64,000 nt of DNA, from IMG/VR virus record IMGVR_UViG_3300035162_004467, positions 1 through 64,000 of that record; one strand, written 5' to 3'. The notes beneath the pieces were generated by a model that was not told the DNA's origin, searched no databases, and was given only the letters and a program-made list of their open reading frames with translations. The position numbers and the translations under genes were made by a program. Positions 4,606-64,000 of the stretch are shown here, one piece after another; the stretch's first letter is position 1, and every line of letters begins with the position of its first letter. This DNA comes from a virus.

Positions 4606-4730
4606 TTGACATAGGCGAGCTATAGAGTAGGGGGAAAAGCCTCGTAAGTCGTTGATACCCAACGAGTTAGCGCCCAAGGGGGGGCGCTCCGCTCTAAGTC
4701 GTTGTCGCTCAGTGAGTTAGAGCGTTTTTA
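4606..4730. repeat. Double-palindrome element 4 with conserved upstream block
   Basis: Units at 4645-4669 and 4695-4719, 50 bp apart, with a GCGCCC/GGGCGC core. The right unit extends to CGCTCTAA...TTAGAGCG and is followed by TTTTT, a terminator-like hairpin in the plus direction. The 39 bases from TTGACA at 4606 to the first unit align with those of element 2 at identical spacing. The 4527-4888 interval holds this element, a second plus-strand TTGACA near 4770 and a minus-strand terminator, and no further gene. Confidence 0.7.
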
Positions 4731-4834
4731 TTTAAATGTTTTTTATTTACTTTTTTAACCCTGAAAGGCTTGACACTCTCGCCATTCTGATTTAAGGTGA
4801 GGTGACACCCTCGTTCCAAGAGGCCAGCCGCAGA

Positions 4835-4868
4835 AGAAAACCCGCCAGCCTCCGAAGAGACTGACGGG
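4835..4868 (-). terminator. Rho-independent terminator with UUCG loop
   Basis: On the minus strand a 12-bp stem (CCCGTCAGTCTC / GAGGCTGGCGGG, with two G-U pairs) closes a TTCG loop and is followed by TTTTCTT. It terminates the gene at 4889-5260. Confidence 0.85.
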
Positions 4869-4888
4869 ATACACACTTAACACAGAAA

Positions 4889-5260
4889 CTAGTAAACTGA
4901 TTTCGCCAGTGCAATGGCCGTGGCCAAGCGGCCTTTTACTTTGGTGATCCCTGCAACGTGCAGGGTGCGGAACTTAGCCTCGCCTCCATCGTCTAGGTCT
5001 TGGACTTTGCCTTGGATGTAGCGACGGCCCGTACTTTTAGCATAGCCAGAGCGCTCAATTTCTTTGATTACTAACTGACGGATTCCGTCAGCCTTAACAG
5101 TAGACTCGCCTTTATTAAGGTAGGTCACGACACGATTGGTCAACTTGTTCTTGAGGTCTTCGTCACTGAGGCGATAGAGGGGATTCCCGCCAGTGCCGAC
5201 CCAGTGATCGCAGCGGGAGGAGGTGGAGGAGGTGGAGGAGGTGGTAGTGTTGTTTTTCAT
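4889..5260 (-). CDS. Hypothetical protein with Thr/Ser-rich N-terminus
   Basis: A 123-residue protein. The first 16 residues are a low-complexity Thr/Ser tract encoded by a 9-base repeat; a helical part follows (residues about 30-75), then a beta-rich C-terminal part with KFRTLHVAGI shared with the protein at 3797-4009. No membrane segment. The start at 5258-5260 is supported by AATACT ending 6 nt upstream and the CTCGTTATG block seen at the gene at 83. It has a strong terminator. Family unknown. Confidence 0.65.
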   Translation of the reverse strand: MKNNTTTSSTSSTSSRCDHWVGTGGNPLYRLSDEDLKNKLTNRVVTYLNKGESTVKADGIRQLVIKEIERSGYAKSTGRRYIQGKVQDLDDGGEAKFRTLHVAGITKVKGRLATAIALAKSVY

Positions 5261-5607: not shown

Positions 5608-5799
5608 TTAGAACCAATGCTGATCTCTGTCTTCCTTGTGCTTTGCGAGAACTTTCTCAAGTCTTTCTTTGATCTCAGGGTTGTCGAATGTCAGGAGACC
5701 AGTGATATAACAAAGTTCGTAACGCATGTCGCTTGCGGCAGTGCTCTCTTTAATGAACATGTCAAAGTAGTTTTTTTCTGTGTCGGTCGTCTCAGTCAT
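5608..5799 (-). CDS. Hypothetical acidic helical protein, 63 aa
   Basis: The longer frame could begin at 5835, but that ATG lies inside the promoter. The ATG at 5797-5799 is preceded by TTGACA-18 nt-TATACT-6 nt, so the protein starts MTETTDTEKNYFDMF. It is short, acidic and helical (EIKERLEKVLAKHKED), with no family recognised. Confidence 0.65.
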   Translation of the reverse strand: MTETTDTEKNYFDMFIKESTAASDMRYELCYITGLLTFDNPEIKERLEKVLAKHKEDRDQHWF

Positions 5800-5835
5800 G
5801 GAAGTAGTATAGTTGAAAAGCGGGGGGATTGTCAA
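5800..5835 (-). promoter_or_regulatory. Consensus sigma70-type early promoter, leaderless
   Basis: TTGACA (5830-5835), 18 nt, TATACT (5806-5811), 6 nt, ATG on the minus strand. The -35 box sits in the loop of a GGGGGG/CCCCCC hairpin. The promoter overlaps the upstream part of the open frame, which decides the gene start. Confidence 0.75.
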
Positions 5836-5856
5836 CCCCCCTTTTAAATGTTTTTT

Positions 5857-6051
5857 TTAGGAAGTGAAGACTTTCCAGAAGGTTTTATTTGCATGGCAGC
5901 ATTTTACTTCGAAGGTCTCGCCTTGGTAGCAAGTGACCGATCCTAATTTTTCAGCACACATTTGCTTGAACTCTTCAGGGTTTTCGCCCCATCCGTTCAT
6001 TGTGCCTAGGTTTTTGTACGTGTCTTGGATTTGTTTCAGTGTCATTCTCAT
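5857..6051 (-). CDS. Hypothetical protein, 64 aa
   Basis: A small protein starting MRMTLKQIQDTYKNLG, with three cysteines in its C-terminal half (CYQGETFEVKCC) that could bind a metal. TTGCAA-17 nt-TAAACT-6 nt precedes the ATG at 6049-6051. No family recognised. Confidence 0.65.
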   Translation of the reverse strand: MRMTLKQIQDTYKNLGTMNGWGENPEEFKQMCAEKLGSVTCYQGETFEVKCCHANKTFWKVFTS

Positions 6052-33624: not shown

Positions 33625-36140
33625 TGGCTATTATTGGTGAAAGAGAAACATTAACATCTTTAGACTTTAATTTCTCCAGTTCAGGAGGTAATCATTCTGC
33701 AACTGTTCAAAGCGTTTTTGACGCAAAAGATTTGTCTGATTCAGAAAGTGAACTTGGGACATTGATTGGTTCTAGTGCTGGTAAGGTTACATTTTCTAAT
33801 GATGAAATTGATAACTTGATGAAGAATTTCATACAAGTTGAGAAGACCGTGCAACAAGATGGAAACAAAAAAACAGTTTCTAGAAAACTTCAAGATTCAA
33901 CATCTCTAAGATTAAAATCTCACTGTTTTATTGTCAGAGGTAGGGACTCCCATCCTCATGATAAGGGGGTTTCTGGAATAAGTAATGCTCAAGTAAGAGA
34001 TTTGACTGCTTCTGGAATGCTGATTGACGGATTGGGGATTTCTAAGCCTAGAGTTTCTTCTGGAGCAGGAGCAGAAGTAATTCTTCCTTATTTCGGAGAA
34101 TTACCTAATAGCCCAATAACAAGTTCTGCACAAAGATTTCCCTTCAGGAGACCGACAAGGTTGAATGGTAGTGGGGTTATAGCAATTGGGAATGTTTATA
34201 ATGAAGAAAGCTCTGTAAATTCTGACGGAAGAAAAACTTCTTTGTCTTATCAAAGTGGGGATCTGAAAGAGAAGATTAGTTTCAACGAAGAGTACGTAAG
34301 TACTTTTTATAAAGACAATCCAGATTTATCTAATTACGACTTGAATTTTGGCTACACTTTGCGGGAAGCGAAGCGAGGTTTCGGTTTGGCTGGCATCACA
34401 TTGGCAGGATTGCCAGAATCAGCCACAGATGAAGTCTTGTTTAGCGAGTCTGGAACTTTAGATTCAATAGCGTCAAGCATTGCTTCTAAATATGGATATT
34501 ATTGGTTTATCGATCCATTTAGCTTTGGATTAATAAAATTCATAAACTCAGCTTCTGCTTCTCAATTAGGTATAACAAATCCATTGACGCAATCAGGAGA
34601 TCTTCAAGAAAAATATGTAAACGCTTCATTCACGCAAAGCAATCTATCCCCAAAGATAGTCAATGCCTTTGGTTCGACAATTGAGAAACGGACTCAAACT
34701 TTTGATTTTGCTGAAGGCCAAAGATATGTTCGTTTCCATAAGCTGCAAATGAAGGGGATGAGTCAGTTTTTTAAATTTGATGAAAGTTTATTAGGATTAT
34801 TTTATGGATTATATCTCTCTGGTAAATTTGATGCATTTACTTTCGATGCTTTAGCTCATTATGCTACCTTTATAGACAAAAACAATAATGTTGAATGGGG
34901 TGACAATTGGGGAAATTCAGATCAAATCCGTGATGGGAAAACATGTGGATGGGGTACTTCTATAGCTGGTACGACAGTTAGAAAATACATGGAAGATCAA
35001 TGGGATGGAGATTTCAATTTAAAAACTGGAACATATGTGACGTTCCGAAAAAGTGTTGGCGGTGTGACAGGGGGGGGGAGGTTAACCAACCCATCTAGAA
35101 ATAAGATATTTGGAAATCTAAAAGATTTTTTCGATTTAATATCTAGTTCTATTTATGTGTCTAACAAATTCTCACAATATAAAGCTAGAAGAATGCAGTG
35201 GGGAAGCTCAGATATGAGCATCTCTGGTCCTTTCGACATTCACGATAAGGACATCTCAGAGGTAGATGGACTTCAAACATTATACTCAGTATTAGAGTTA
35301 AATGGATTTGGAAATAAGAAATTAAATGATATATTTGCAAAATCAGACTCTTCTGGGACAGGGGGAAACCATGGATTTGTTGGAATAATTAAGGGGAACC
35401 AAAGACTTGCTGCGGGAAATAGCAAAAAAGATTTTGATTACGAGGCCGTTAATGATGAAAATTTTATTTTCATCAAAAATCCTCACACTAACGAAAACTT
35501 TTTTGGTTTCTCTAATAAATTCAAGAACAGCGTAGATAATTTGATAACGAAATCTGTTGGGATGTATCAAAAAATTAAGGCATCGGAAAGCCGAGATGCT
35601 CCAAACACATCAAAAGCTTATTATACTAGAGTTAGACAGCCAACAGATGAAGAAGGAACAGAAGAAGACAGAAAGCAGGAGGAAGCCAGAAATAGAAGGC
35701 AAGCAGGACTTGATGCCGCTGCTGAAAAACTCTCAGAGGTAGCGGAAAGATTTGATATAAGATACTTTAACGTTAAAACGAATGGGGCTTCTGGTGATCC
35801 GCTAGTTCCTATTACTCTTGACACAAAGAATGGGAAAATTTCAGACATCAAAGCTTTAGAAGCAGCGAACTTTTCCGCAAGGCAATCTAGCTCTCAAAAA
35901 ACTGCAACTTCTAGTAGGACTATAGTTGGTATCAGTTTACCGGATGTTTTTTCTGTTACACTTTCTGGCCTGACCCTAAAGCTGGGCAGTTCTGGAGTGA
36001 CCACAACGATTCAAGAATCGACGATGAAGCTATTGAAGCCTGATGAACAATTAATAATCAATGATGGCCAAAGAGCAGCCTTGGCTACAAGTTTCAATAC
36101 TAATTTCTCTGCGAAACAGAAAAACTTCTTGGGGCTATAA
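33624..36140 (+). CDS. Tail hub / tip protein
   Basis: An 838-residue protein, the last of the rightward virion block. The central part (SIASSIASKYGYYWFIDPFSFGLI, then VNASFTQSNLSPKIVNAFGS) resembles tail hub proteins of the gp27/Tal type, with a helical charged stretch around residues 670-710. It is likely the central tip through which DNA is ejected. It ends six bases into the convergent gene at 36135, so the two transcripts meet tail to tail. Confidence 0.6.
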   Translation: MAIIGERETLTSLDFNFSSSGGNHSATVQSVFDAKDLSDSESELGTLIGSSAGKVTFSNDEIDNLMKNFIQVEKTVQQDGNKKTVSRKLQDSTSLRLKSHCFIVRGRDSHPHDKGVSGISNAQVRDLTASGMLIDGLGISKPRVSSGAGAEVILPYFGELPNSPITSSAQRFPFRRPTRLNGSGVIAIGNVYNEESSVNSDGRKTSLSYQSGDLKEKISFNEEYVSTFYKDNPDLSNYDLNFGYTLREAKRGFGLAGITLAGLPESATDEVLFSESGTLDSIASSIASKYGYYWFIDPFSFGLIKFINSASASQLGITNPLTQSGDLQEKYVNASFTQSNLSPKIVNAFGSTIEKRTQTFDFAEGQRYVRFHKLQMKGMSQFFKFDESLLGLFYGLYLSGKFDAFTFDALAHYATFIDKNNNVEWGDNWGNSDQIRDGKTCGWGTSIAGTTVRKYMEDQWDGDFNLKTGTYVTFRKSVGGVTGGGRLTNPSRNKIFGNLKDFFDLISSSIYVSNKFSQYKARRMQWGSSDMSISGPFDIHDKDISEVDGLQTLYSVLELNGFGNKKLNDIFAKSDSSGTGGNHGFVGIIKGNQRLAAGNSKKDFDYEAVNDENFIFIKNPHTNENFFGFSNKFKNSVDNLITKSVGMYQKIKASESRDAPNTSKAYYTRVRQPTDEEGTEEDRKQEEARNRRQAGLDAAAEKLSEVAERFDIRYFNVKTNGASGDPLVPITLDTKNGKISDIKALEAANFSARQSSSQKTATSSRTIVGISLPDVFSVTLSGLTLKLGSSGVTTTIQESTMKLLKPDEQLIINDGQRAALATSFNTNFSAKQKNFLGL

Positions 36141-36911
36141 TTTTCTGATCGCAGCCCTTATCTTCCGAACTTCTTTTACTGGGATATCGCTAAAATCATT
36201 CCAGTTTTGAGCGTCTTCATTTTTATAAATTTCTTGCTTCCATAAAGAACGCAAAGCTCCTTTTTTAAAGTCTTCAAAATTGTGGCCTCCACCAGTTTGA
36301 TCTTGCCAGTCTTGGAATAGTCTTGCATGAGGAGAAAGAATACGATCTATACTTTCATCGCTACAAGATTCAATTGATTGCGAATTGACAGCTCCTTTCG
36401 ATTTATCAATCTCATCAGCTCCAACGATATGAATGTTCAGGAAGTTACGGACACATCTTACGAAAGCTCTATTACAAGCAATAGTCTCTAGAAACTTTGC
36501 CGCGAAAGAACCTGTATTTTGCAATGTAGCATTCGCCACATCTTGGTAACCAATGCGCTCTTTGTTGCTTTCATAGTTAGGAGACCAAACAATTTCACAA
36601 CTAGCCACAACATAAGTATCGTTAAGGTGGTTAGTATCGAATGAGACGCTTTCAAATCCTCTGAGTCGGGCCAACTCTTTAATGCCTCCTAACATAATCA
36701 AGAGCTGTTTATCATCCAAGCCTTCTGAAGAAGTGGGGACATCTTTTTTGCGAGCTTCAAACCAGTCCTTGTTTGGATAAAGGAACTCTGATTTAATCAT
36801 TGCCCTCCAATCTACAGAACCATCCTCGCTAAATTCGTATTCTACATTTTCTAAAAGCCCATGTTCATTGCGCTTGTAAAGATCAGGTCCGTAAATTTTT
36901 TTATCACTCAT
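36135..36911 (-). CDS. Candidate recombination / strand-annealing protein
   Basis: A 258-residue protein of a family I do not recognise with certainty. The middle shows VASCEIVWSPNYES followed by NTGSFAAKFLETIACNRAFV and RCVRNFLNIHIVG. A helix ending 'R-A-x-x-R' before a short strand is the style of RecT/Rad52-type annealing proteins. It lies near an SSB-like gene. It has its own promoter, TTGACT-17 nt-TATACT-7 nt-ATG, so it can be expressed early and alone. Confidence 0.5.
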   Translation of the reverse strand: MSDKKIYGPDLYKRNEHGLLENVEYEFSEDGSVDWRAMIKSEFLYPNKDWFEARKKDVPTSSEGLDDKQLLIMLGGIKELARLRGFESVSFDTNHLNDTYVVASCEIVWSPNYESNKERIGYQDVANATLQNTGSFAAKFLETIACNRAFVRCVRNFLNIHIVGADEIDKSKGAVNSQSIESCSDESIDRILSPHARLFQDWQDQTGGGHNFEDFKKGALRSLWKQEIYKNEDAQNWNDFSDIPVKEVRKIRAAIRKL

Positions 36912-54496: not shown

Positions 54497-54714
54497 ACTT
54501 TTTTGACAAAACAGACAATACCTTACCTCAAAGCATTCTTACTAAATTGTTCGACTGCACTGGCTCCCCAAGTGGAGGAAACAAAGGGTTCTTCCTATTT
54601 TACATAAATGAAGTTGGTCATCCTACTCTCTCGACTAAAACAGACAATACTTGTGTTGATATGGCTCTCTCTAAATTAGTCGAAATATCTCAACAGCAGG
54701 AGGTGAGCGAATGA
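54493..54714 (+). CDS. Hypothetical protein, 73 aa
   Basis: A short protein (MNFFDKTDNTLPQSILTKLFD) with a central beta segment (GGNKGFFLFYINEVGHPTL). Four-base overlaps on both sides place it firmly in the replication operon between the nuclease and the helicase. No family recognised; a helicase-loading or accessory factor would fit the position only. Confidence 0.6.
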   Translation: MNFFDKTDNTLPQSILTKLFDCTGSPSGGNKGFFLFYINEVGHPTLSTKTDNTCVDMALSKLVEISQQQEVSE

Positions 54715-56258
54715 TAGCTAGCTTAGACTTAGAGAAGACGGTTTTAAAGGGACTTCTCCAACATCCCAATAAGTGGGCTGAAGCTTCAGTATTCTTAAAT
54801 CAAAAAGATTTCTTTAGCGATGATTCTGTTGTAAACCTCTCTATCTTTAAACTCATCCGAAATGCTCTGGATAATGCAGAGACTATAGATGACACTATAC
54901 TCATACCAAGGTTAGAACAACTCAAGGTTAGTTTCCCAGACAGCATCGATCTTCCAGAATACATACGGTCTTTGGTTTACCACAAGATAACCGAAGATAT
55001 CTTTATTTCTTCGGTTAGAGAATTAAAGAAGTTCTCTGCTCGTAGAGAAATTTATCGTGCTGCGAAAGACGTTGCGTCTTACGTTAAGAAGGTAGACCCA
55101 AATCTCAAGTATTCAGAGATTATTGACAAGTCAGACGAAATTTATAACAAGAATATAAAAGAGTTTGAGTTCAATGATGAAGGTCCAATCAACCTATTCG
55201 ATATTATGGAAGAGTTGGTTGAAGGCAGGGGGAACAATCCGATTGAAGAAGCTGGTCTAATGGGGCCGCACCAACGCATCAATGATATTTACGGTTCTCT
55301 ACTTTTAGAAGGTAACATCTCTGTTATTGTTGCTCGCTCTGGTGTTGGTAAAACTCAGTTCTGTATGGACTATACAATTAGAACTGGAGCTAAATACAAT
55401 ATCCCTATTCTTCACTTCGATAATGGAGAGATGAGTGAAGAAGAGTTAACTCTTCGCCAGTGTTCTGCAATGACAGGTATACCAATTTATCTTTTGCAAA
55501 GTGGTAAGTGGAGAACATCTAGTTATAAAGACTGGACTGTAGAACAGGTTATAGGAAAAGTTCGTAGTGCTTGGCAGCAGATTAAGGAAGGTAAGATGAA
55601 ATTCTATTACCAAAATGTTGCTGGTATGTCTGCTGAAGAGATGTGTTCTTATTTGAAAAGGTTTTATTACTCTAAAGTTGGTAGGGGGAATAAGATGATT
55701 TTTAGCTTTGATTACATTAAAACAGACTTTAATAATCTGGGTAAAAACGAAGGTTGGCAACAAGTAGCCTCAATGGTTCATTTGTTTAAACAAACGATTC
55801 ATAGGGATTTGTGTTTTGATGGCAAACCTTGCGTCTCAATGATGACTTCTGTTCAAGCGAATAGGCTTGGGATAACAGGGAATAGGGGAGTAGATTCGAT
55901 AGTCGATGATGAAAGCGTAGTCTCTCTTTCAGATGGCATCACTCAGTTTTGTTCTCATTTGTTTTTATTGAGGAAAAAAATACCAGATGAAGTTCATGAA
56001 GATGGAGATCGTTTCGGCACTCATAAGCTAGTTAACCTAAAGGCTCGGCACTTGGGTAAAGATGCCCTTCGTGCGATCAATCCTGTAGAAATGCCAGATG
56101 GCTCTAATCGTAAAAACTTCATCAACTTGAATATTGAAAACTTCAGGGTTGAGGAAAGGGGCGACCTTCAAGATGTTGTAAACTCTGCCAATAATATTGA
56201 CGTTTCTTTGGAGACTAATGAAGAGAATGACGATATCCCAATGGTTCTTTCGCGATGA
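54711..56258 (+). CDS. Replicative DNA helicase (DnaB-type)
   Basis: A 515-residue helicase. The N-terminal 130 residues match the DnaB N-terminal domain (EKTVLKGLLQHPNKWAEA). The RecA-type motor shows SVIVARSGVGKTQFCMDY (Walker A), LHFDNGEMSEEELTLRQ, MIFSFDYIKTDFNN (Walker B) and SVQANRLG. It unwinds the fork ahead of the DnaE-type polymerase and loads with the primase encoded next. ATGA-type overlaps join it to both neighbours. Confidence 0.9.
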   Translation: MIASLDLEKTVLKGLLQHPNKWAEASVFLNQKDFFSDDSVVNLSIFKLIRNALDNAETIDDTILIPRLEQLKVSFPDSIDLPEYIRSLVYHKITEDIFISSVRELKKFSARREIYRAAKDVASYVKKVDPNLKYSEIIDKSDEIYNKNIKEFEFNDEGPINLFDIMEELVEGRGNNPIEEAGLMGPHQRINDIYGSLLLEGNISVIVARSGVGKTQFCMDYTIRTGAKYNIPILHFDNGEMSEEELTLRQCSAMTGIPIYLLQSGKWRTSSYKDWTVEQVIGKVRSAWQQIKEGKMKFYYQNVAGMSAEEMCSYLKRFYYSKVGRGNKMIFSFDYIKTDFNNLGKNEGWQQVASMVHLFKQTIHRDLCFDGKPCVSMMTSVQANRLGITGNRGVDSIVDDESVVSLSDGITQFCSHLFLLRKKIPDEVHEDGDRFGTHKLVNLKARHLGKDALRAINPVEMPDGSNRKNFINLNIENFRVEERGDLQDVVNSANNIDVSLETNEENDDIPMVLSR

Positions 56259-57304
56259 CTGATTACAGATCTATTTTAGAGGACTTAGGTTATAAGCTAA
56301 AAGACCACGGCTCTTATTGGAGAACTAGTGCAGTCTACAGGTCTGGGGGCAATAATACTGCCCTTCAAATTTACAAAGACACTGGAGTCTGGAAAGATTA
56401 TGTGGAGGATTCTATATTCCTTCCGTTTGAAGCGTTACTTCAAAAAACTCTCAATACAAACGATAAGAATGTTTTAAGTTCTTATTTAAAGACTGATGGT
56501 GTAAATATATATGAACGCACCAAAAAAAAGCATCTTTTGAGTGAGGAAAAAACATACCCAGACACTTGTTTGAATAGGCTATTGCCTCATTATGATTTTT
56601 ATTTTAATAGAGGAATCTCAGAAGATACTCTCAAAAAATTTAAATGTGGGCTAGCTATGTCTGGCAAAATGTATCAGCGAGTTATATTCCCTATCTCACG
56701 CTCTGATGGTAAGATACATGGGTTTTCAGGTCGCAAGGTAACAGATGACCCTAGACCTAAGTGGTTACACAATGGGCGTTGTTCAGACTGGTTCTATCCT
56801 TACTATACTATAGATGATGTTGCTGCTGCAATTCAGGAGCATCGTTGCGTATATGTCGTAGAATCTATTGGAGACTGTATTTCTTTGTTTGATGCTGGAG
56901 TCAAAAATGTTCTTGTTTCTTTTGGGTTGAATATTTCGCCAAAGTTTATTTCTAAACTACATGGCTTGCCTTTGGATAAAGTCATCATTGCTTTTAATAA
57001 TGATTTTAATTCAGGTTCCAACAGAGGATTTGAAGGTTCGATCAAGTCTATATTTAAACTCTGTGATCAAATTGATTTTGACAAAGTATTCTTTTCTCCT
57101 CCTCCAGAAAATGACTTTGGGGACATGAGCGAGAAGCAAATACATAAATATGTTGAATATTGTGCGTCGATTCAGCATAATGAATCGATGGCTAACGTTA
57201 TTGATTTCGCCAAAGAGATGAATAAGCGAGGAGTCAACAAAACTTTCTCTAGTAATTTGAGAAAGCTTGAAAAGAAATTCGACTTCCATTATGGAGAAAT
57301 CTGA
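56255..57304 (+). CDS. DNA primase (Toprim type)
   Basis: A 349-residue primase. Its N-terminal part (LKDHGSYWRTSAVYRSGGNNT, then YKDTGVWKDYVED) resembles the zinc-binding domain of T4-like gp61, but no Cys/His cluster is visible there. The catalytic part has YFNRGISEDTLKKFKCG and a Toprim signature: CVYVVESIGDCISLFDAGVKNVLVSFGLN, then IIAFNNDFNSGSNRG with acidic residues. It makes RNA primers for the fork. Overlaps link it to the helicase and to the nuclease. Confidence 0.85.
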   Translation: MTDYRSILEDLGYKLKDHGSYWRTSAVYRSGGNNTALQIYKDTGVWKDYVEDSIFLPFEALLQKTLNTNDKNVLSSYLKTDGVNIYERTKKKHLLSEEKTYPDTCLNRLLPHYDFYFNRGISEDTLKKFKCGLAMSGKMYQRVIFPISRSDGKIHGFSGRKVTDDPRPKWLHNGRCSDWFYPYYTIDDVAAAIQEHRCVYVVESIGDCISLFDAGVKNVLVSFGLNISPKFISKLHGLPLDKVIIAFNNDFNSGSNRGFEGSIKSIFKLCDQIDFDKVFFSPPPENDFGDMSEKQIHKYVEYCASIQHNESMANVIDFAKEMNKRGVNKTFSSNLRKLEKKFDFHYGEI

Positions 57305-58337
57305 AAATAAGCCCTTATCAGCATCTCGCATCAAAACGATGCAAACCTGCACTTGGCAATATTGGGCGAAGTATCACTTGCGTTTGCCAGACAAGTCTAA
57401 TCACGGCTCTCTTCGTGGAACCATTTGTCACGCAGTATTTGAGAATCTAGGAAATCCTCGTCATAGAAAGCACTATAGAGCGATTATAAAGGCTCAAGAT
57501 ATAAATGTCAGTTCTTCGATCAAGAGAATGGTGGAAGCTTATGCCAAAAAGTATGAGATAGACGATTTCGAAAATATGGATTTGATCAACAAGATGACAG
57601 TTGAGGGTCTAAATTTTGATTTCTTTGGAGACACAGATAGTAAGCCCACAGAATCCATCTCTGAGAAAGATTTCGATATATCTGTAGCAGATGGAGATAA
57701 AAACTATAGAATCTTAGGATTTATTGACAAACTCTTTTTGTTCAAGAGGAGGAAGACTGCTATCATTAGAGACTTTAAAACTTCTAAAAGTATTTTTGAG
57801 GGCAAAGAGTATTCGGACAATATGCAGGACTACATGTATTGCCTTGCGGTAAAATATCTATACCCAGAATACCTAAAACGCAAGATGGAATTTTTATTTT
57901 TAAAATTTGACCTTGAAGGGGAAGGTTGTTTGGAAATGCAACCACTAGACGACTTAGATTTAGAGGGCTTCGAATACTTCTTAACTGACATCCAAAAAGT
58001 CATCAATAACTTTAATGAAAAAACAGCCGTAAGTGGACTTGCTTGGGACAAGGGATACCCTGCAAAAGAAGATGGGTTTGCGGGTAAGATTGTTTGCGGT
58101 AGGGCGACTTACGTTGGTCAGTTAAAAAAGAATGGAGACTTGATGTGGCATTGTCCGTTTAAGTTCCCATTTGATTATTATCATCTACTTGGCGACAACG
58201 ATAAGTTCATTAAATCCTCTTATGTCAAAAAAGACTTGCAATACATGCTCGACGAAGGAGTGGGAACTCATATCGAAAGCAAAAAATATTCAGGATGCCC
58301 TTCTTTTTCATTTGACAAGTCGGTAGATCTTATTTAG
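57291..58337 (+). CDS. PD-(D/E)XK exonuclease (Cas4/RecB-like)
   Basis: A 348-residue nuclease. LSASRIKTMQTCTWQYWAKY is the characteristic opening, RGTICHAVFENL gives the conserved His, then LGFIDKLFLF (Asp), IIRDFKTSKSIF (D-x-K motif III) and NMQDYMYCLAV (Q-x3-Y). The ATG at 57291 fits MEKSENKPLSAS; an upstream ATG at 57267 is also open. It probably processes DNA ends for recombination. The -35 box of the next promoter lies near its 3' end. Confidence 0.85.
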   Translation: MEKSENKPLSASRIKTMQTCTWQYWAKYHLRLPDKSNHGSLRGTICHAVFENLGNPRHRKHYRAIIKAQDINVSSSIKRMVEAYAKKYEIDDFENMDLINKMTVEGLNFDFFGDTDSKPTESISEKDFDISVADGDKNYRILGFIDKLFLFKRRKTAIIRDFKTSKSIFEGKEYSDNMQDYMYCLAVKYLYPEYLKRKMEFLFLKFDLEGEGCLEMQPLDDLDLEGFEYFLTDIQKVINNFNEKTAVSGLAWDKGYPAKEDGFAGKIVCGRATYVGQLKKNGDLMWHCPFKFPFDYYHLLGDNDKFIKSSYVKKDLQYMLDEGVGTHIESKKYSGCPSFSFDKSVDLI

Positions 58338-58346
58338 GATCTAGCC
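58312..58346 (+). promoter_or_regulatory. Consensus early promoter, leaderless type, before the PHP gene
   Basis: TTGACA (58312-58317), 17 nt, TAGGAT (58335-58340), 6 nt, ATG at 58347. It allows the three-part polymerase to be transcribed on its own. Confidence 0.7.
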
Positions 58347-59048
58347 ATGGTTCCTCTTTTTAAGAGTCAATTCAGTGTAGGAAAGTCTATCCTCACCTCA
58401 GAGAAAATATTAGACATAGCTAAAATAAACCAATTAGAAAAGGTTGTTTTATTGGAGGATACTTTTTATGGGTTTAGGGTATTCAATAAGCTCTTTCAGG
58501 AGGAAGGAATCCCTCTTGTTTTTGGATTGAGAATATCTGTTGTTAATACGGATGGAGATTTTAATGAAAAACCTAGCAAGCTAGCTATTTTTGCAAAAAA
58601 TAATCAAGGAATACAAGATTTAAAGAGGATATCTTCTAATGCAGCTTTGAATGATCGGAACTCTCTAGTCTTGTCTGAATATGGCGAAAGTGATTTTGAG
58701 AATCTAAAGGTTTGCGTCCCCTTCTACGATTCTTATGTATTTAATAATTTATTCCACTTTGGGCTATCCCACATAGATATTAAACATTTAGATCCAGTTT
58801 ACTTTATCGAAGATAATAATCACCCATTTGATTTCCAAATCAAGTCTGTTATTGACAATCTGGGAGTAAAAACTCAAACTGCAAAAACAATCCTCCACCA
58901 CAACAAAGATGAATTTGAGGCTTTGCAAATGTATAAGGCTTCTTGTAGTAGATCTCAAGGACGAGCGCCTACTTTTCAAAGACCAAACTTAGACCACTTC
59001 TGTTCAGATAATTTCTGTTGGGAGTCTTATAAAGATGTTACCGTATAA
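58347..59048 (+). CDS. DnaE PHP-domain protein, stand-alone and metal-site-degenerate
   Basis: A 233-residue protein matching the PHP domain that starts bacterial DNA polymerase III alpha. VVLLEDTFYGFRVFNKLFQEE and GIPLVFGLRISV align with the family's 'TDHG..YG..EFYKA..' and 'IKPIIGCE.Y' blocks, and LAIFAKNNQGIQDLKRISS with 'LLAKNEEGY.NL..L.S'. The H-x-H at the start is replaced (FKSQFS) and the D-H of 'TDHG' is lost (LEDTFYG), so metal-dependent catalysis is unlikely. It would be a structural subunit of the polymerase encoded two genes on. It overlaps the exonuclease gene by 14 bases. Confidence 0.75.
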   Translation: MVPLFKSQFSVGKSILTSEKILDIAKINQLEKVVLLEDTFYGFRVFNKLFQEEGIPLVFGLRISVVNTDGDFNEKPSKLAIFAKNNQGIQDLKRISSNAALNDRNSLVLSEYGESDFENLKVCVPFYDSYVFNNLFHFGLSHIDIKHLDPVYFIEDNNHPFDFQIKSVIDNLGVKTQTAKTILHHNKDEFEALQMYKASCSRSQGRAPTFQRPNLDHFCSDNFCWESYKDVTV

Positions 59049-59649
59049 TCAAAAATATTTAGTATTCGATACTGAGACGGAGGGTTTGAATCTTCATTCT
59101 TCTCGCACTTGGCAAGTCTCTTGGCTTATATGTCAGGGAGGTAGGGTTTTGAAAGAAAATGATCGGTATATAAACCACAACAATCTACAGATAAATTCAG
59201 TTGTAGCTAAATTAACGGGTTTTTCTTGGGAAGAATATGATCGAAGGAAGGAGCCTTTGAAAAATGTCTGGTCTGATTTTAAAAAAGATTTATTCAATCC
59301 TGAGTATAAGGTTGTTGGTCAAAATTTATTAGGTTTTGATGTTTATATGGTAGCAGCGATGCAAAGAGCTTTGGGTGAGATCCCAGACTATAGTTACTTA
59401 GAAAGAATTTACGATACTAGAGCTTTCGGCAAGGCTTACAGGGAAGATCTTGGCAAACCCAAGAAGGATTTATTGAGTTGGCAGTATAAGATAATTCATG
59501 ACCGATCCCTCAAGGCGAGAGTTTCTCAAAATCAGTTGCTCAAATTCTTCGGTATAGAATTTGAGGAAGATAAACTGCATGATGCCTTATATGATAACAA
59601 GATGTGCTTTAAGGTTTTTTCTGCACTTAAAAAAGAAATGAATTTGTGA
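59035..59649 (+). CDS. 3'-5' proofreading exonuclease (DnaQ-like, DEDD)
   Basis: A 204-residue exonuclease. Motif I is YLVFDTETEGLN, Exo II is KVVGQNLLGFDVYM and Exo III includes HDALYDNKMCFKVF. The last motif looks like the DEDDh type (His-Asp with the downstream Asp). It would remove misincorporated bases for the polymerase core encoded next, as DnaQ does for DnaE. It overlaps both neighbours (14 and 4 bases), so the products are likely made together. Confidence 0.85.
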   Translation: MLPYNQKYLVFDTETEGLNLHSSRTWQVSWLICQGGRVLKENDRYINHNNLQINSVVAKLTGFSWEEYDRRKEPLKNVWSDFKKDLFNPEYKVVGQNLLGFDVYMVAAMQRALGEIPDYSYLERIYDTRAFGKAYREDLGKPKKDLLSWQYKIIHDRSLKARVSQNQLLKFFGIEFEEDKLHDALYDNKMCFKVFSALKKEMNL

Positions 59650-62210
59650 TGTTTGAAGATTTTTCTATTTATGATGATTGTGAGCCGCTTGGTGTGGAAT
59701 TGCCAAAGACTTCAGTGAGCGAAACTGTTTTGAAGAGCATCGACCTTGATAAAAAAAGCTCGACTAAAGAGATCATGTATGAGCTTGCTCGTAAGGGTTT
59801 ACGAGACAAGGGCATTACAAACTTTAGTAATAAAAAAGAATATTTTGATAGGACTATACAAGAGCTAGAAACTTTCGAAGAGCTTGGGTTTACAGATTAT
59901 ATTTTGTTGAACTGGGATGTTCTAAACTTCTGTCATGAGAATAAAATTCCTACTGGAGCAGGTCGCGGCTCCGCTGCTGGGTCTTTAGTTTTGTATTTGC
60001 TTGGGGTCACTAATATTGATCCTATCCCTCATAATTTGTTCTTTGAACGTTTTGTATCAAAGAGTCGTGCTAAAAAAGTTTACGATAAACGAAACAAAGA
60101 GTTCCTTGTTGGTAGTCTTCTTCCTGACGTTGACTCAGATATTAGTTACGATCAGAGGCAAAAAGTGATTCAATATATTGAAAAAAAACATGAGGGCAGG
60201 ACAGCAAAGATCTTAACCTTCAACACTTTTAGTTCCAAGCTTTGCATCAGAGAAGCCACTAAGTATTTTGATGAAGCTAAGGAAGACCAAGCTAATTCGG
60301 TTAGTGACATGATCCCCAAGCTTCATGGTAAGGTGTCCTCTTTAGAGAGCGCGAGAGAAGAGAATGAAAGGTTTGACAGTTGGGCAATTAAACATGATAG
60401 GACTTTTGTCAATGCTAAGAGGATTGAGAATCTAATTAAAAATACGGGTGTTCATCCATCTGGCATTGCTATTTGCTCACAATCAATCGGAGATGTTGTG
60501 CCTCTTCAAAAGACCAAAGATGGAGACTTGATAACAGGCTATAACATGCATGATGTCGCTGACCTTATGGTTAAGTTCGATATTCTTGGACTAAGAACAC
60601 TTACAATCGCTCACAGAACTTGTGACAAAATTGGGATTAGCGTAGATGATATAGATGCTAATGACTCATTCATATACGATAAACTTCAAAGTTACAACCA
60701 CCCAGAAGGTCTTTTCCAAATCTCTGCGGATACTAACTTTAGGGTTTGCCAAGAAGTTAAGCCAGATAATCTAGACGAGCTTTCTGACGTTGTCGCTCTG
60801 GCTCGCCCCGCTGCCTTGCAATTCGTTGCTGAGTATTGTAACCAGAAGATGGCTCCTTCTGATTTGAATCTTCACCCAGAGTTAGATAAGATTCTTTCTT
60901 GGTCTAAAAATGTTATCTTGTACCAAGAGCAGTTGATGCAAATTGCTCACAAGGTGTTTGGGTTTACACTTGAAGAGGCTGAAACACTTAGGCGTATCGT
61001 TGGTAAGAAGAAAGTTGATGAGATGCCAGCATGGGAAGAAAAAATTTATACTGCTGGAGAAAAGCTTGGTCTTGGAGAAGAGATTTGTAAATTCTACTGG
61101 GACGCTCTTGATGCTTCTGCGAACTATTCCTTTAATAAGTCCCACAGTTTTGCTTACGCTGAATTAGCAGCGAAGACTGTATACTTAAAATACAAATACC
61201 CTAGAGAGTTTTTCTTATCTGTTCTTGAGTCTTCTGAGTTCGACCCAGATCCTTTGGGAGTTGTCTCTTCTGTCCATCAAGAGTTAGACTACTTTGGTAT
61301 TAAATTACTTCCCCCGAATTTATTTAAATCGAAAATGAATTTTTCTATTGAGGGAGATGATATCAGATATGGTCTAAATGGCATTAAAGGCATTTCCTCT
61401 AAATCTAAAGAGGGTCTTTTGTCTTTCAAAGGGTCAGATGGTTTTGAAGGTAAGTATGATGTATTCGCTGCTGCAAAGAATTGTGGCATTAACATTTCGG
61501 TATTAGCTGCTTTGATCCAAGCAGGAGCTATGGACGAGTCTACAAACAAAAGAGGAAGACTAGTTTTAGAGGCTCAAGCTTTCAACATCTTGACAGATAG
61601 GGAGAAGAGAAATTTTAATCTATTTAAAGAGAGGTTCGGCGATGATATTCTAAAAGCAATATCAGAAGTGATGAGGGTAAATGCTGTTGCTGATGATGGC
61701 CGTCCAATAATGAAGGAGTCTAGGTTTGAGACTTTTAAGAGGAACTTCAAGAACTATAAAGAAATTTTTGACAAAAATAAGCCATTCCAGAAGTTTTGTA
61801 ATTGGTGGTATGAGAACACTTTGCTGGGCTATAGTTACTCTTTCGATTTGAGAGATTGCTTCGAAGATGAATTTGGCTCCATGAGCTGTTTAAGAGACGT
61901 AGATGAAATCTCAGAAAGAACAAGCTTCAAGGTGGTTTGCCAAGTAAAAGATTTTTTTACGAACATATCTCAAAGCGGTAATAAGTATATGATGATTCAT
62001 GGTTCTGACAATACAGGATCAGCTAAATTCTTAATTATGGATAATTCTAGATCAAGCACTCTCTCTGATTTTCTCTCACAATACAAAATATCAAAAGATT
62101 GCATTTTGGTCTTGAACGCCAGCAAGGGTCGTGGTACTAGTTTTGTGAACTCAGCGAGGGTGGTCGATACAAAGATTATGATGAAGCTGAAAGATCTGAA
62201 TAAAAAATGA
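59646..62210 (+). CDS. dnaE: DNA polymerase III alpha core (DnaE-type), without PHP domain
   Basis: An 854-residue C-family polymerase that starts where bacterial DnaE leaves the PHP domain. Motifs are GAGRGSAAGSLVLYLLG, LPDVDSDISYDQR (the P-D-x-D-x-D catalytic pair), VKFDILGLRTL (third Asp), LYQEQLMQIAHKVFGF, and KSHSFAYAELAAKTVYLK. Near the end a helix-hairpin-helix (VLAALIQAGAMDE) and an OB-fold (VVCQVKDFFTNIS...) are visible. It is the phage replicase, with exonuclease and PHP provided by the two genes before it. A clamp or clamp loader is not seen in this window. Confidence 0.93.
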   Translation: MMFEDFSIYDDCEPLGVELPKTSVSETVLKSIDLDKKSSTKEIMYELARKGLRDKGITNFSNKKEYFDRTIQELETFEELGFTDYILLNWDVLNFCHENKIPTGAGRGSAAGSLVLYLLGVTNIDPIPHNLFFERFVSKSRAKKVYDKRNKEFLVGSLLPDVDSDISYDQRQKVIQYIEKKHEGRTAKILTFNTFSSKLCIREATKYFDEAKEDQANSVSDMIPKLHGKVSSLESAREENERFDSWAIKHDRTFVNAKRIENLIKNTGVHPSGIAICSQSIGDVVPLQKTKDGDLITGYNMHDVADLMVKFDILGLRTLTIAHRTCDKIGISVDDIDANDSFIYDKLQSYNHPEGLFQISADTNFRVCQEVKPDNLDELSDVVALARPAALQFVAEYCNQKMAPSDLNLHPELDKILSWSKNVILYQEQLMQIAHKVFGFTLEEAETLRRIVGKKKVDEMPAWEEKIYTAGEKLGLGEEICKFYWDALDASANYSFNKSHSFAYAELAAKTVYLKYKYPREFFLSVLESSEFDPDPLGVVSSVHQELDYFGIKLLPPNLFKSKMNFSIEGDDIRYGLNGIKGISSKSKEGLLSFKGSDGFEGKYDVFAAAKNCGINISVLAALIQAGAMDESTNKRGRLVLEAQAFNILTDREKRNFNLFKERFGDDILKAISEVMRVNAVADDGRPIMKESRFETFKRNFKNYKEIFDKNKPFQKFCNWWYENTLLGYSYSFDLRDCFEDEFGSMSCLRDVDEISERTSFKVVCQVKDFFTNISQSGNKYMMIHGSDNTGSAKFLIMDNSRSSTLSDFLSQYKISKDCILVLNASKGRGTSFVNSARVVDTKIMMKLKDLNKK

Positions 62211-64000
62211 TTGATTTAACTTTTACTCCTCAAATTAGGTCTGTATTCGAAAAGTCTCGTGACTTGTCTCTTGATTTGAAGAGGAACGGTGTGGATATGG
62301 ACATATTCTTCCACTGTTTCATTCATGACCTTAGTTTGTCTTGTCAGACTATACTGGATAAATATAGATGCCTCAATGCCTTGAAATTGGCCTCTAAGAA
62401 GGTTATGTCCGAGAAGAAAGAGACTAAAGTAATTTCTAAGAGATACACCCCCAAGTTAAATAAATTTATTGAGTATTGTGAAATAACGCAGTTGGAGTTT
62501 TTTGGAGGAGATTATATTTCGCCAGAAATAATCCTTTTAAACTTTCTTAATGAAGACTATACTCCCAAGGCTTTTTCTGAAGTTTTAGATCAGGACATAC
62601 ATACAGATTTGGTTTATGATATATCAAAGTTTTGTCGGGACGAGGATGTTGAAGAAGAGATACAAGATGGTTCATGGGAATCTCTTTCCAAAGATGTCAC
62701 AGAAGATTGGATAGACATGTTTGATGAAAACCCAACTCTTGATCAGTTCGCAGAAAATTTAAATTTGAAAGCTTCCCGCCAAGAGTTTGATAAAATAGTA
62801 GATTTTGATGATAAAATATCAGAGATAGCCACCATCCTTTGTCGGAAGAAAAAGCCAAATGCAATTTTAGTGGGACCAGCGGGAACTGGTAAAACATCTT
62901 TGATTGAAGGATTAGCGTCTCAAATCGTCAATGGAGAAGCTCCAGAGCTTATTGCTAATAAAGTGATCTACTCTCTTAGCTTGTCTAGTATGGTTGCTGG
63001 AACGCAGTATCGTGGTCAGTTTGAAGAGAGGTTGGAAAAGTTTGTGGATGAAATTAAGAAGTACAATAATATTATTTTGTTTATTGACGAAGTCCATACT
63101 CTTGTCGGGGCTGGAGGAACTACAGAAAATTCTTTAGAAGCTTCTAATATACTCAAGCCTGAGCTTGCTCGTGGTACTATTAGTTGCATTGGAGCTACCA
63201 CAATTAACGAATATACAAACACGATTAAAAAAGACTCTGCTTTAGATCGTCGTTTTGAAAGAGTGGTCATCAAAGAGCCTTCCAAGTTCCAGATGAAGGA
63301 GATCCTACCTACTATAGCTTCTCACTACGAAGACTTTCATGCGGTAAAGTATACTGAAGATTTTATTGATCATGTTATTGATTTCTGTGAGAAATATATC
63401 CCCAATAAATTTTATCCAGATAAGGCGATTGATGTGATTGATCATTGTGGAGCGCAAGCTAAAGTTTCTCACTGGGGAAGCGATAGCTCATTAAAAGACT
63501 TGCGGAAAGAAATAGAAGATAGTGATGTAGATCTTGCCTCAACAGAATCGTTATTGTCATTTGTAACAGGGAAATTATCAGATTGGTCTGAAAGTAAGGA
63601 TGTTGAAGACCCAAATGTTACAATAAAGCATCTTAAAGATTTCTTTTCAAAGAAAGAGAACCCTCTTAGGAAACCAAAAAATTTATCTGACCTCTCTACG
63701 GGCTTGAAGAAAAAGCTTATAGGTAATAACAAGGTTATCGATTCTCTTATTGGATCGATCTCTCTATCTAATTACGGGATGCATAAAAAAGGGGCAGCTC
63801 CTAGTATTTATTGTATCACTGGAGTAGAGTCTAGCGGCAAAAGCTTTTTCTGTTCAACTTTGAAGGATTCTCTTGAGAAAAGTGGGATAAATGTGCTGAA
63901 CTACAGCGGAGTCCATTTTTCTGACGAGTTTGCTAAGTTCAAAGTTTTGCCAGAAGTGATGAACAATACTTCTCTATGTGAGAAGATCAATATCCACCCC
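62207..64000 (+). CDS. ClpA/ClpB-like double AAA+ ATPase (partial, cut by window end)
   Basis: At least 598 residues, starting at the ATG that overlaps the polymerase stop (ATGA, 62207-62210). An N-terminal helical region of about 190 residues precedes the first AAA+ module: NAILVGPAGTGKTSLIEG (Walker A), NIILFIDEVHTLVGAGG (Walker B), GATTINEYTN and DSALDRRFERV (arginine finger). A second module begins with ITGVESSGKSFFCSTL. This order is that of Hsp100 unfoldases. In a replication operon it could remodel replisomes or work with a host protease; the C-terminus that would decide this is missing. Confidence 0.85.
   Translation, partial: MIDLTFTPQIRSVFEKSRDLSLDLKRNGVDMDIFFHCFIHDLSLSCQTILDKYRCLNALKLASKKVMSEKKETKVISKRYTPKLNKFIEYCEITQLEFFGGDYISPEIILLNFLNEDYTPKAFSEVLDQDIHTDLVYDISKFCRDEDVEEEIQDGSWESLSKDVTEDWIDMFDENPTLDQFAENLNLKASRQEFDKIVDFDDKISEIATILCRKKKPNAILVGPAGTGKTSLIEGLASQIVNGEAPELIANKVIYSLSLSSMVAGTQYRGQFEERLEKFVDEIKKYNNIILFIDEVHTLVGAGGTTENSLEASNILKPELARGTISCIGATTINEYTNTIKKDSALDRRFERVVIKEPSKFQMKEILPTIASHYEDFHAVKYTEDFIDHVIDFCEKYIPNKFYPDKAIDVIDHCGAQAKVSHWGSDSSLKDLRKEIEDSDVDLASTESLLSFVTGKLSDWSESKDVEDPNVTIKHLKDFFSKKENPLRKPKNLSDLSTGLKKKLIGNNKVIDSLIGSISLSNYGMHKKGAAPSIYCITGVESSGKSFFCSTLKDSLEKSGINVLNYSGVHFSDEFAKFKVLPEVMNNTSLCEKINIHP

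Follow-up and report, generated by a model that had tools for sequence, protein, structure and literature searches.

The replicative DNA polymerase of a group of uncultured tailed phages is likely a three-subunit core, in which a catalytically dead PHP protein would act as a scaffold and a separate exonuclease would proofread; the assembly of the three chains is a step that we infer. The genes in question lie at positions 58347-62210 of a 64,000-nucleotide stretch of virus DNA, here called the window (positions 1 to 64,000 of IMG/VR record IMGVR_UViG_3300035162_004467, which has 85,310 bases in all). The record also encodes a large terminase, a tape measure protein and a ribonucleotide reductase, from which it is assigned to a tailed phage. 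A sequence-only reading of the window had described the unit as three separate, overlapping genes for a PHP domain, a DnaQ-like exonuclease and a polymerase III (Pol III) alpha core; the open reading frames (ORFs), Pfam matches and structure models bear this out. The products are referred to below as PHP, EXO and POL:

58347..59048, + strand: stand-alone PHP-domain protein, 233 residues, predicted DnaE-type fold, metal-ligand motif lost (PF02811, hhalign, AlphaFold, Foldseek, alignments)
59035..59649, + strand: predicted DEDDh 3'-5' exonuclease with DnaQ fold, 204 residues, without an epsilon-like C-terminal tail (PF00929, PHROG 192, DEDDh residues, PDB relatives)
59646..62210, + strand, start GTG 59646 or ATG 59649: predicted DnaE-type Pol III alpha core (palm, fingers, HhH, OB-like C-terminus), 853-854 residues, no PHP (PF07733/PF17657/PF14579, DnaE profiles, PDB, AlphaFold, Foldseek)

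PHP and EXO overlap by 14 nucleotides, EXO and POL by 1-4, depending on which of the two POL start codons is chosen.

Identity of the three proteins

POL matches the Pfam families DNA_pol3_alpha (PF07733, E-value 3e-58), finger (PF17657, 1e-31) and HhH_6 (PF14579, 2e-16), scores far better against DnaE profiles (2e-133) than against PolC (3e-7), and finds DnaE 3e0d in the PDB by sequence (5e-93); Foldseek, queried with its AlphaFold model (predicted local distance difference test, pLDDT, 87.3), likewise ranks DnaE first and PolC later. Residues D162, D164 and D311, within PDVDSD and KFDILG, match DnaE motifs and are invariant in 44 sequences; we take them to be the counterparts of the catalytic D401, D403 and D555 of E. 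coli DnaE. By these comparisons POL is a DnaE-type Pol III alpha core with a predicted intact catalytic triad; with PHP on another chain, it is classed as a variant of DnaE rather than as a standard one. The alignment to E. coli DnaE begins only at POL residue 36, opposite DnaE residue 285, so that no PHP domain is hidden at the N-terminus; what is conserved there is a motif, C-x-P-x-G-V-x-L-P, similar to the segment that closes the PHP domain of DnaE. At the other end, the (HhH)2 region is followed by a β-rich, OB-like domain, for which Foldseek also returns RPA-type OB folds, and the chain ends just past it; a tau-binding domain is not apparent, though a poorly conserved one could escape notice. 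The C-terminal tau-binding domain is also absent from some bacterial DnaEs (PMC3919608).

EXO matches RNase_T (PF00929, E-value 1.4e-9) and PHROG 192, 'DNA polymerase exonuclease subunit', and has 8h18 and 2p1j as PDB relatives. Its residues D12, E14, D102, H182 and D187 are invariant in 30 diverse relatives; EXO is thus, as judged from its sequence, a predicted proofreading exonuclease with an intact DEDDh active site. The chain stops as soon as the conserved fold is complete and has no PHP-binding tail of the kind found in E. coli epsilon, for which reason it is not classed as an epsilon orthologue.

The order PHP, exonuclease, polymerase recalls PolC, as the sequence-only reading had remarked, and EXO gives weak matches to PolC exonuclease profiles (E-value 7e-8) and to the Thermotoga PolC exonuclease (2p1j). 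The likeness in order stands, but kinship does not follow from it: besides the profile scores of the core, its structure matches DnaE far better, its OB-like domain is C-terminal as in DnaE, and the EXO gene comes after a nearly complete PHP. PolC identity is ruled out by profiles and structure, and we give almost no credence to descent from a PolC whose domains came apart.

For PHP, sequence searches alone are marginal: searches of the PDB and of the phage collection returned nothing useful, Pfam PHP (PF02811) matches residues 6-103 with an E-value of 3.3e-7, and the hhalign profile comparison with fused phage DnaEs gives 3e-6 over just 100 columns. Its PHP-like character, which by the earlier reading a profile comparison could have refuted, is settled by alignment, model and Foldseek together. 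Distant relatives align directly to residues 44-242 of E. coli DnaE (E-value 1e-18) and score 3.5e-16 against Pfam PHP. The AlphaFold model, built from a 55-sequence alignment (pLDDT 89.7; predicted template modelling score, pTM, 0.87), finds its best PDB matches in Pol III alpha PHP domains (2hnh, E-value 2.8e-11; 3e0d, template modelling (TM) score 0.79 by query length), and the first 20 PDB matches are, without exception, Pol III alpha entries (DnaE or PolC) or their PHP-epsilon chimeras. Free-standing PHP phosphoesterases rank lower, with TM scores of about 0.43; identity as one of these is ruled out by the Foldseek ranking.

The metal-binding motif of PHP domains is HHDHEH[C/H]DH (PMC12926913). 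Alignments of relatives and of E. coli DnaE indicate that it is lost in the phage protein, its positions being substituted: the first HxH position falls in an LFKSxxSxGKSIL segment, which has no pair of histidines, and SIYY or the like stands in place of NDxHY. The 58347 product is therefore, as far as sequence and model predict, a complete and genuine DnaE-type PHP domain that is catalytically degenerate, and it falls outside the active PHP proofreaders of the M. tuberculosis DnaE1 type. Could it instead be an enzyme in its own right, a nuclease or phosphatase that binds metal through altered ligands, so that the replicase would have two proofreaders? Conservation of the acidic cleft-loop residues D38, D128, E155 and D162 speaks for this; the canonical motif is lost, however, while the PHP proteins of certain actinophages, split from their cores independently, keep recognisable HxH, EHG and DVHY motifs, and we regard this activity as very unlikely.

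Constancy of the split among environmental phages

Relatives were gathered by scans with the core alone, which are neutral as to the PHP partner, and comprise at least 581 related viral contigs. Among the loci fetched, in all of the distinct environmental phage loci that hold the three genes (151/151) the genes are split and stand in the order PHP, EXO, POL; none is fused. Loci with POL and without PHP are those whose contig, or the stretch fetched from it, ends close upstream. The search of other phages suggested in the earlier reading thus extends the observation far beyond one genome: the three-gene split is general to a large group of uncultured tailed phages. In trees made without PolC, the members of the split family group together in a single clade (100/100 support) on a long stem, and relatives at 33-50% identity still retain a separate PHP. 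The same arrangement is found, where complete, in 12 contigs binned into bacterial or archaeal metagenome-assembled genomes; the bins are several and often assigned to Bacteroidota, but since phage contigs are not binned reliably, no host is claimed. The cultured-phage collection yielded no member of the family and no match to the window PHP, and its best matches to the core are all at or below about 32% identity.

Sequencing or assembly frameshifts that broke an ordinary dnaE, or programmed frameshifting that joins the chains, would leave ORFs overlapping by a few nucleotides, much as the window's do, and junctions in the family are mostly overlapping or nearly so. Gaps, however, reach 3.4 kb (L084, L089), in other loci the genes are parted by further ORFs (L021, L228), the arrangement recurs in every one of the 151 loci, and EXO stands between PHP and the core, which a simple break in dnaE would not yield. 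A frameshift or assembly artefact is ruled out as a general explanation by the kilobase separations, the insertions and the number of loci, and is exceedingly improbable in any form.

The insertions are of several kinds. At L021 8748-9662, a LAGLIDADG-type ORF, probably a homing endonuclease, sits exactly between PHP and EXO. L228 has a 159-residue ORF between PHP and EXO (4642-5121) and a 71-residue one between EXO and POL (5766-5981), both without Pfam match, and gaps of similar sizes occur in many members of its subclade. In L076 (5995-9042) and L204 (7980-10964) the POL gene itself is interrupted; an intron or a frame break may be the cause.

Each of 16 long records (85-203 kb), namely the window's own (G000) and 15 related ones, has one core, one EXO and at most one PHP by Pfam. 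A second, intact DnaE, which would have spoken against the earlier reading, was found neither in the 85,310-base record nor in the 15 longer relatives, though records may be incomplete. The same 16 records have no match to the beta clamp family PF02768, which suggests that the phages use the host clamp, or none.

Promoter, neighbouring genes and a proposed replicase

The unit lies in a replication block of conserved order (DnaB-like helicase, DnaG-type primase, PD-(D/E)XK nuclease, PHP-EXO-POL, Clp-like AAA+ gene), and a candidate promoter precedes PHP:

54711..56258, + strand: DnaB-like helicase, upstream of the unit and within the conserved replication block (PF03796, PF00772; order kept in 28 loci)
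56255..57304, + strand: DnaG-type primase (PF08275, Toprim; conserved order)
57267..58337, + strand: PD-(D/E)XK (Cas4/RecB-like) nuclease, adjoining PHP upstream, with the promoter in its 3' end (PF12705; conserved order)
58312..58340, + strand: sigma-70-like candidate promoter TTGACA-N17-TAGGAT, whose -10 shares nucleotides with the stop codon of the preceding gene (conservation in relatives)
62207..64000, + strand, running past the window end: Clp-like AAA+ ATPase, adjoining POL downstream (AAA_lid_9, AAA; conserved order), 763 residues long in the near-identical L002

A consensus scan of the window alone is not significant (29 promoter sites against 24.8+/-4.6 expected), and it is comparison that supports the claim of the earlier reading that the unit has its own promoter. 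TTGACA lies upstream of PHP in 25/25 relatives compared, even where the overlapping codons differ, and a match of at least 9/12 is found just before the PHP start in 83% of 84 deduplicated upstreams, as against 6% of shuffles, 16% before EXO and 3% before POL. The -10 of this conserved TTGACA-N17-TATAAT-like site ends 6 nucleotides before the PHP start codon in the window, and 6-7 in the commonest arrangements among relatives; this is so near that transcription would begin at or next to the start codon, which suggests a leaderless PHP transcript. Two further ORFs in the window, 36135-36911 (- strand) and 5608-5799 (- strand), have TTGACW-N17/18-TATACT sites that also end 6-7 nucleotides before the start codon, so that leaderless promoters may be widespread in this phage.

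In the arrangement we propose, PHP and POL would re-associate non-covalently over the surface that they share in fused DnaE, with the conserved C-x-P-x-G-V-x-L-P at the POL N-terminus helping to hold PHP to the palm; PHP would be a structural scaffold that also docks EXO, EXO would supply all proofreading, and the three genes would be transcribed partly independently of the helicase and primase genes upstream. E. coli offers a model for such docking, since epsilon there packs its C-terminal helix against the PHP domain of alpha (PMC4703070); as EXO has no long C-terminal tail, its mode of docking must differ. An inactive PHP offset by a DnaQ proofreader is a recurrent bacterial pattern (PMC12926913).

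Several points weigh against this arrangement. E. coli epsilon binds PHP through the very tail that EXO lacks, and the mutual binding of PHP, EXO and POL is a proposal, the structure predictions being of single chains. The active-site loops of PHP have acquired new conserved residues (S10, S14, Y127, D128, E155 and D162), from which the protein may have an activity as yet unrecognised. The promoter is supported by a consensus match and its conservation rather than by a mapped transcript.

Some of these points would also suit a PHP that stands outside the replicase, as a free protein serving some other purpose (say, binding of a host protein, or regulation), leaving POL to work with EXO alone: PHP has its own candidate promoter, the new residues in its loops are specific to the family, and in some loci it lies up to 3.4 kb from EXO. 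Yet it is always ahead of EXO and POL, its fold is nearest the PHP domain of DnaE and not the free-standing PHP enzymes, and POL retains at its N-terminus a segment like the end of PHP; we therefore consider a free PHP unlikely, and the three-subunit replicase the better account. A more specific form of the latter is put forward tentatively, as a possibility rather than an expectation: the dead PHP would be an obligate stand-alone adaptor, made from a leaderless transcript of its own, and a separate protein would thus couple the proofreader to the polymerase or release it.

Nearly all bacterial replicative polymerases carry a PHP domain, yet it is often dead, and what it does is a matter of debate. 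That a phage lineage has long kept a dead PHP as a separate protein suggests a need for the domain that depends neither on catalysis nor on covalent attachment to the core. The split family is a natural setting for leaving PHP out, titrating it or swapping it.

Comparison with known replicases

PHP and core are one chain in bacteria (PMC3919608), and to this extent the statement of the earlier reading holds; it does not extend to all phages, since some actinophages are split near the same boundary. The cultured phages that we looked at closely mostly have a single-chain alpha. In a control set of 80 phage DnaEs, taken in order of their similarity to a fused query and hence no guide to how frequent splits are, the PHP region and the core are in one ORF throughout, one of the proteins being cut further downstream. 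PHP and core are, however, also separate proteins in the actinophages Erudite (Microbacterium, cluster EF; L401 3001-6349), ChewyVIII (Rhodococcus; L402 3001-6564), BiteSize (Gordonia; L405 3004-6636) and Papyrus (Mycobacterium; L406 3001-6622), and two Pol III alpha-subunit genes were noted in cluster EF phages in a 2020 survey (PMC7302621). The actinophage cut, at about 272|287 of E. coli DnaE, is in almost the same place as in the window family, slightly later, after the last PHP helix. The actinophage PHP, with its motifs kept, matches Pfam PHP at about 1e-34, unlike the window-family protein that has lost them; and between PHP and core there are short ORFs without Pfam match (in 3/4 phages) and no exonuclease, where the window family has EXO. 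The two split clades are separate, each with 100/100 support, and the actinophages are sister to single-chain Samistivirus-type DnaEs; by this phylogeny the splits arose independently, and PHP and core have thus come apart at least twice. The split is therefore not unprecedented; what sets the window family apart is that its PHP is dead, that a proofreading gene intervenes, and that it is widely spread in the environment. The contrast with actinophages, whose separate PHP is apparently active and which have no intervening exonuclease, makes the question of scaffold or nuclease directly testable.

Other phages have alpha in pieces with cuts elsewhere. In Cellulophaga phiST, Pseudomonas PA5, Rossellomorea phiT1 and Alicyclobacillus KKP_3916, alpha is in at least two pieces, cut inside the polymerase (at E. 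coli positions of about 397, 463, 574 and several) and not at the PHP boundary; the KKP_3916 protein is spread over four ORFs with other ORFs between them (L215 2607-9221), probably owing to introns or mobile elements. Group 2.2 jumbo phages have a minimal two-piece Pol III alpha without PHP, described in a 2021 survey (PMC7824862); here too the genes are separate, but the split is inside the catalytic module and a family B polymerase is present (PMC7824862). We found no three-protein replicase with a stand-alone adaptor PHP described in bacteria or cultured phages, although an earlier mention in the viral-replicase review of Kazlauskas and Venclovas is possible.

Among bacterial enzymes, PolC of Firmicutes shares the order PHP, exonuclease, polymerase with the phage unit, but is a single chain that has an OB domain at its N-terminus and carries the exonuclease as an insertion within PHP (PMC3919608); the phage unit has a DnaE-type core, and its EXO gene does not interrupt PHP. 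In Bacteroidetes DnaE1, an exonuclease is fused N-terminally to PHP in one chain (PMC3919608), a likeness in that an exonuclease is physically associated with a DnaE-type alpha. The E. coli Pol III core (DnaE alpha and DnaQ epsilon) likewise combines a DnaE-type polymerase, an inactive PHP and a separate DEDDh exonuclease; it differs in that PHP and core are one chain, that alpha has a C-terminal tau-binding domain of which none is apparent in POL, and that epsilon, unlike EXO, carries a clamp motif and a long PHP-binding tail.

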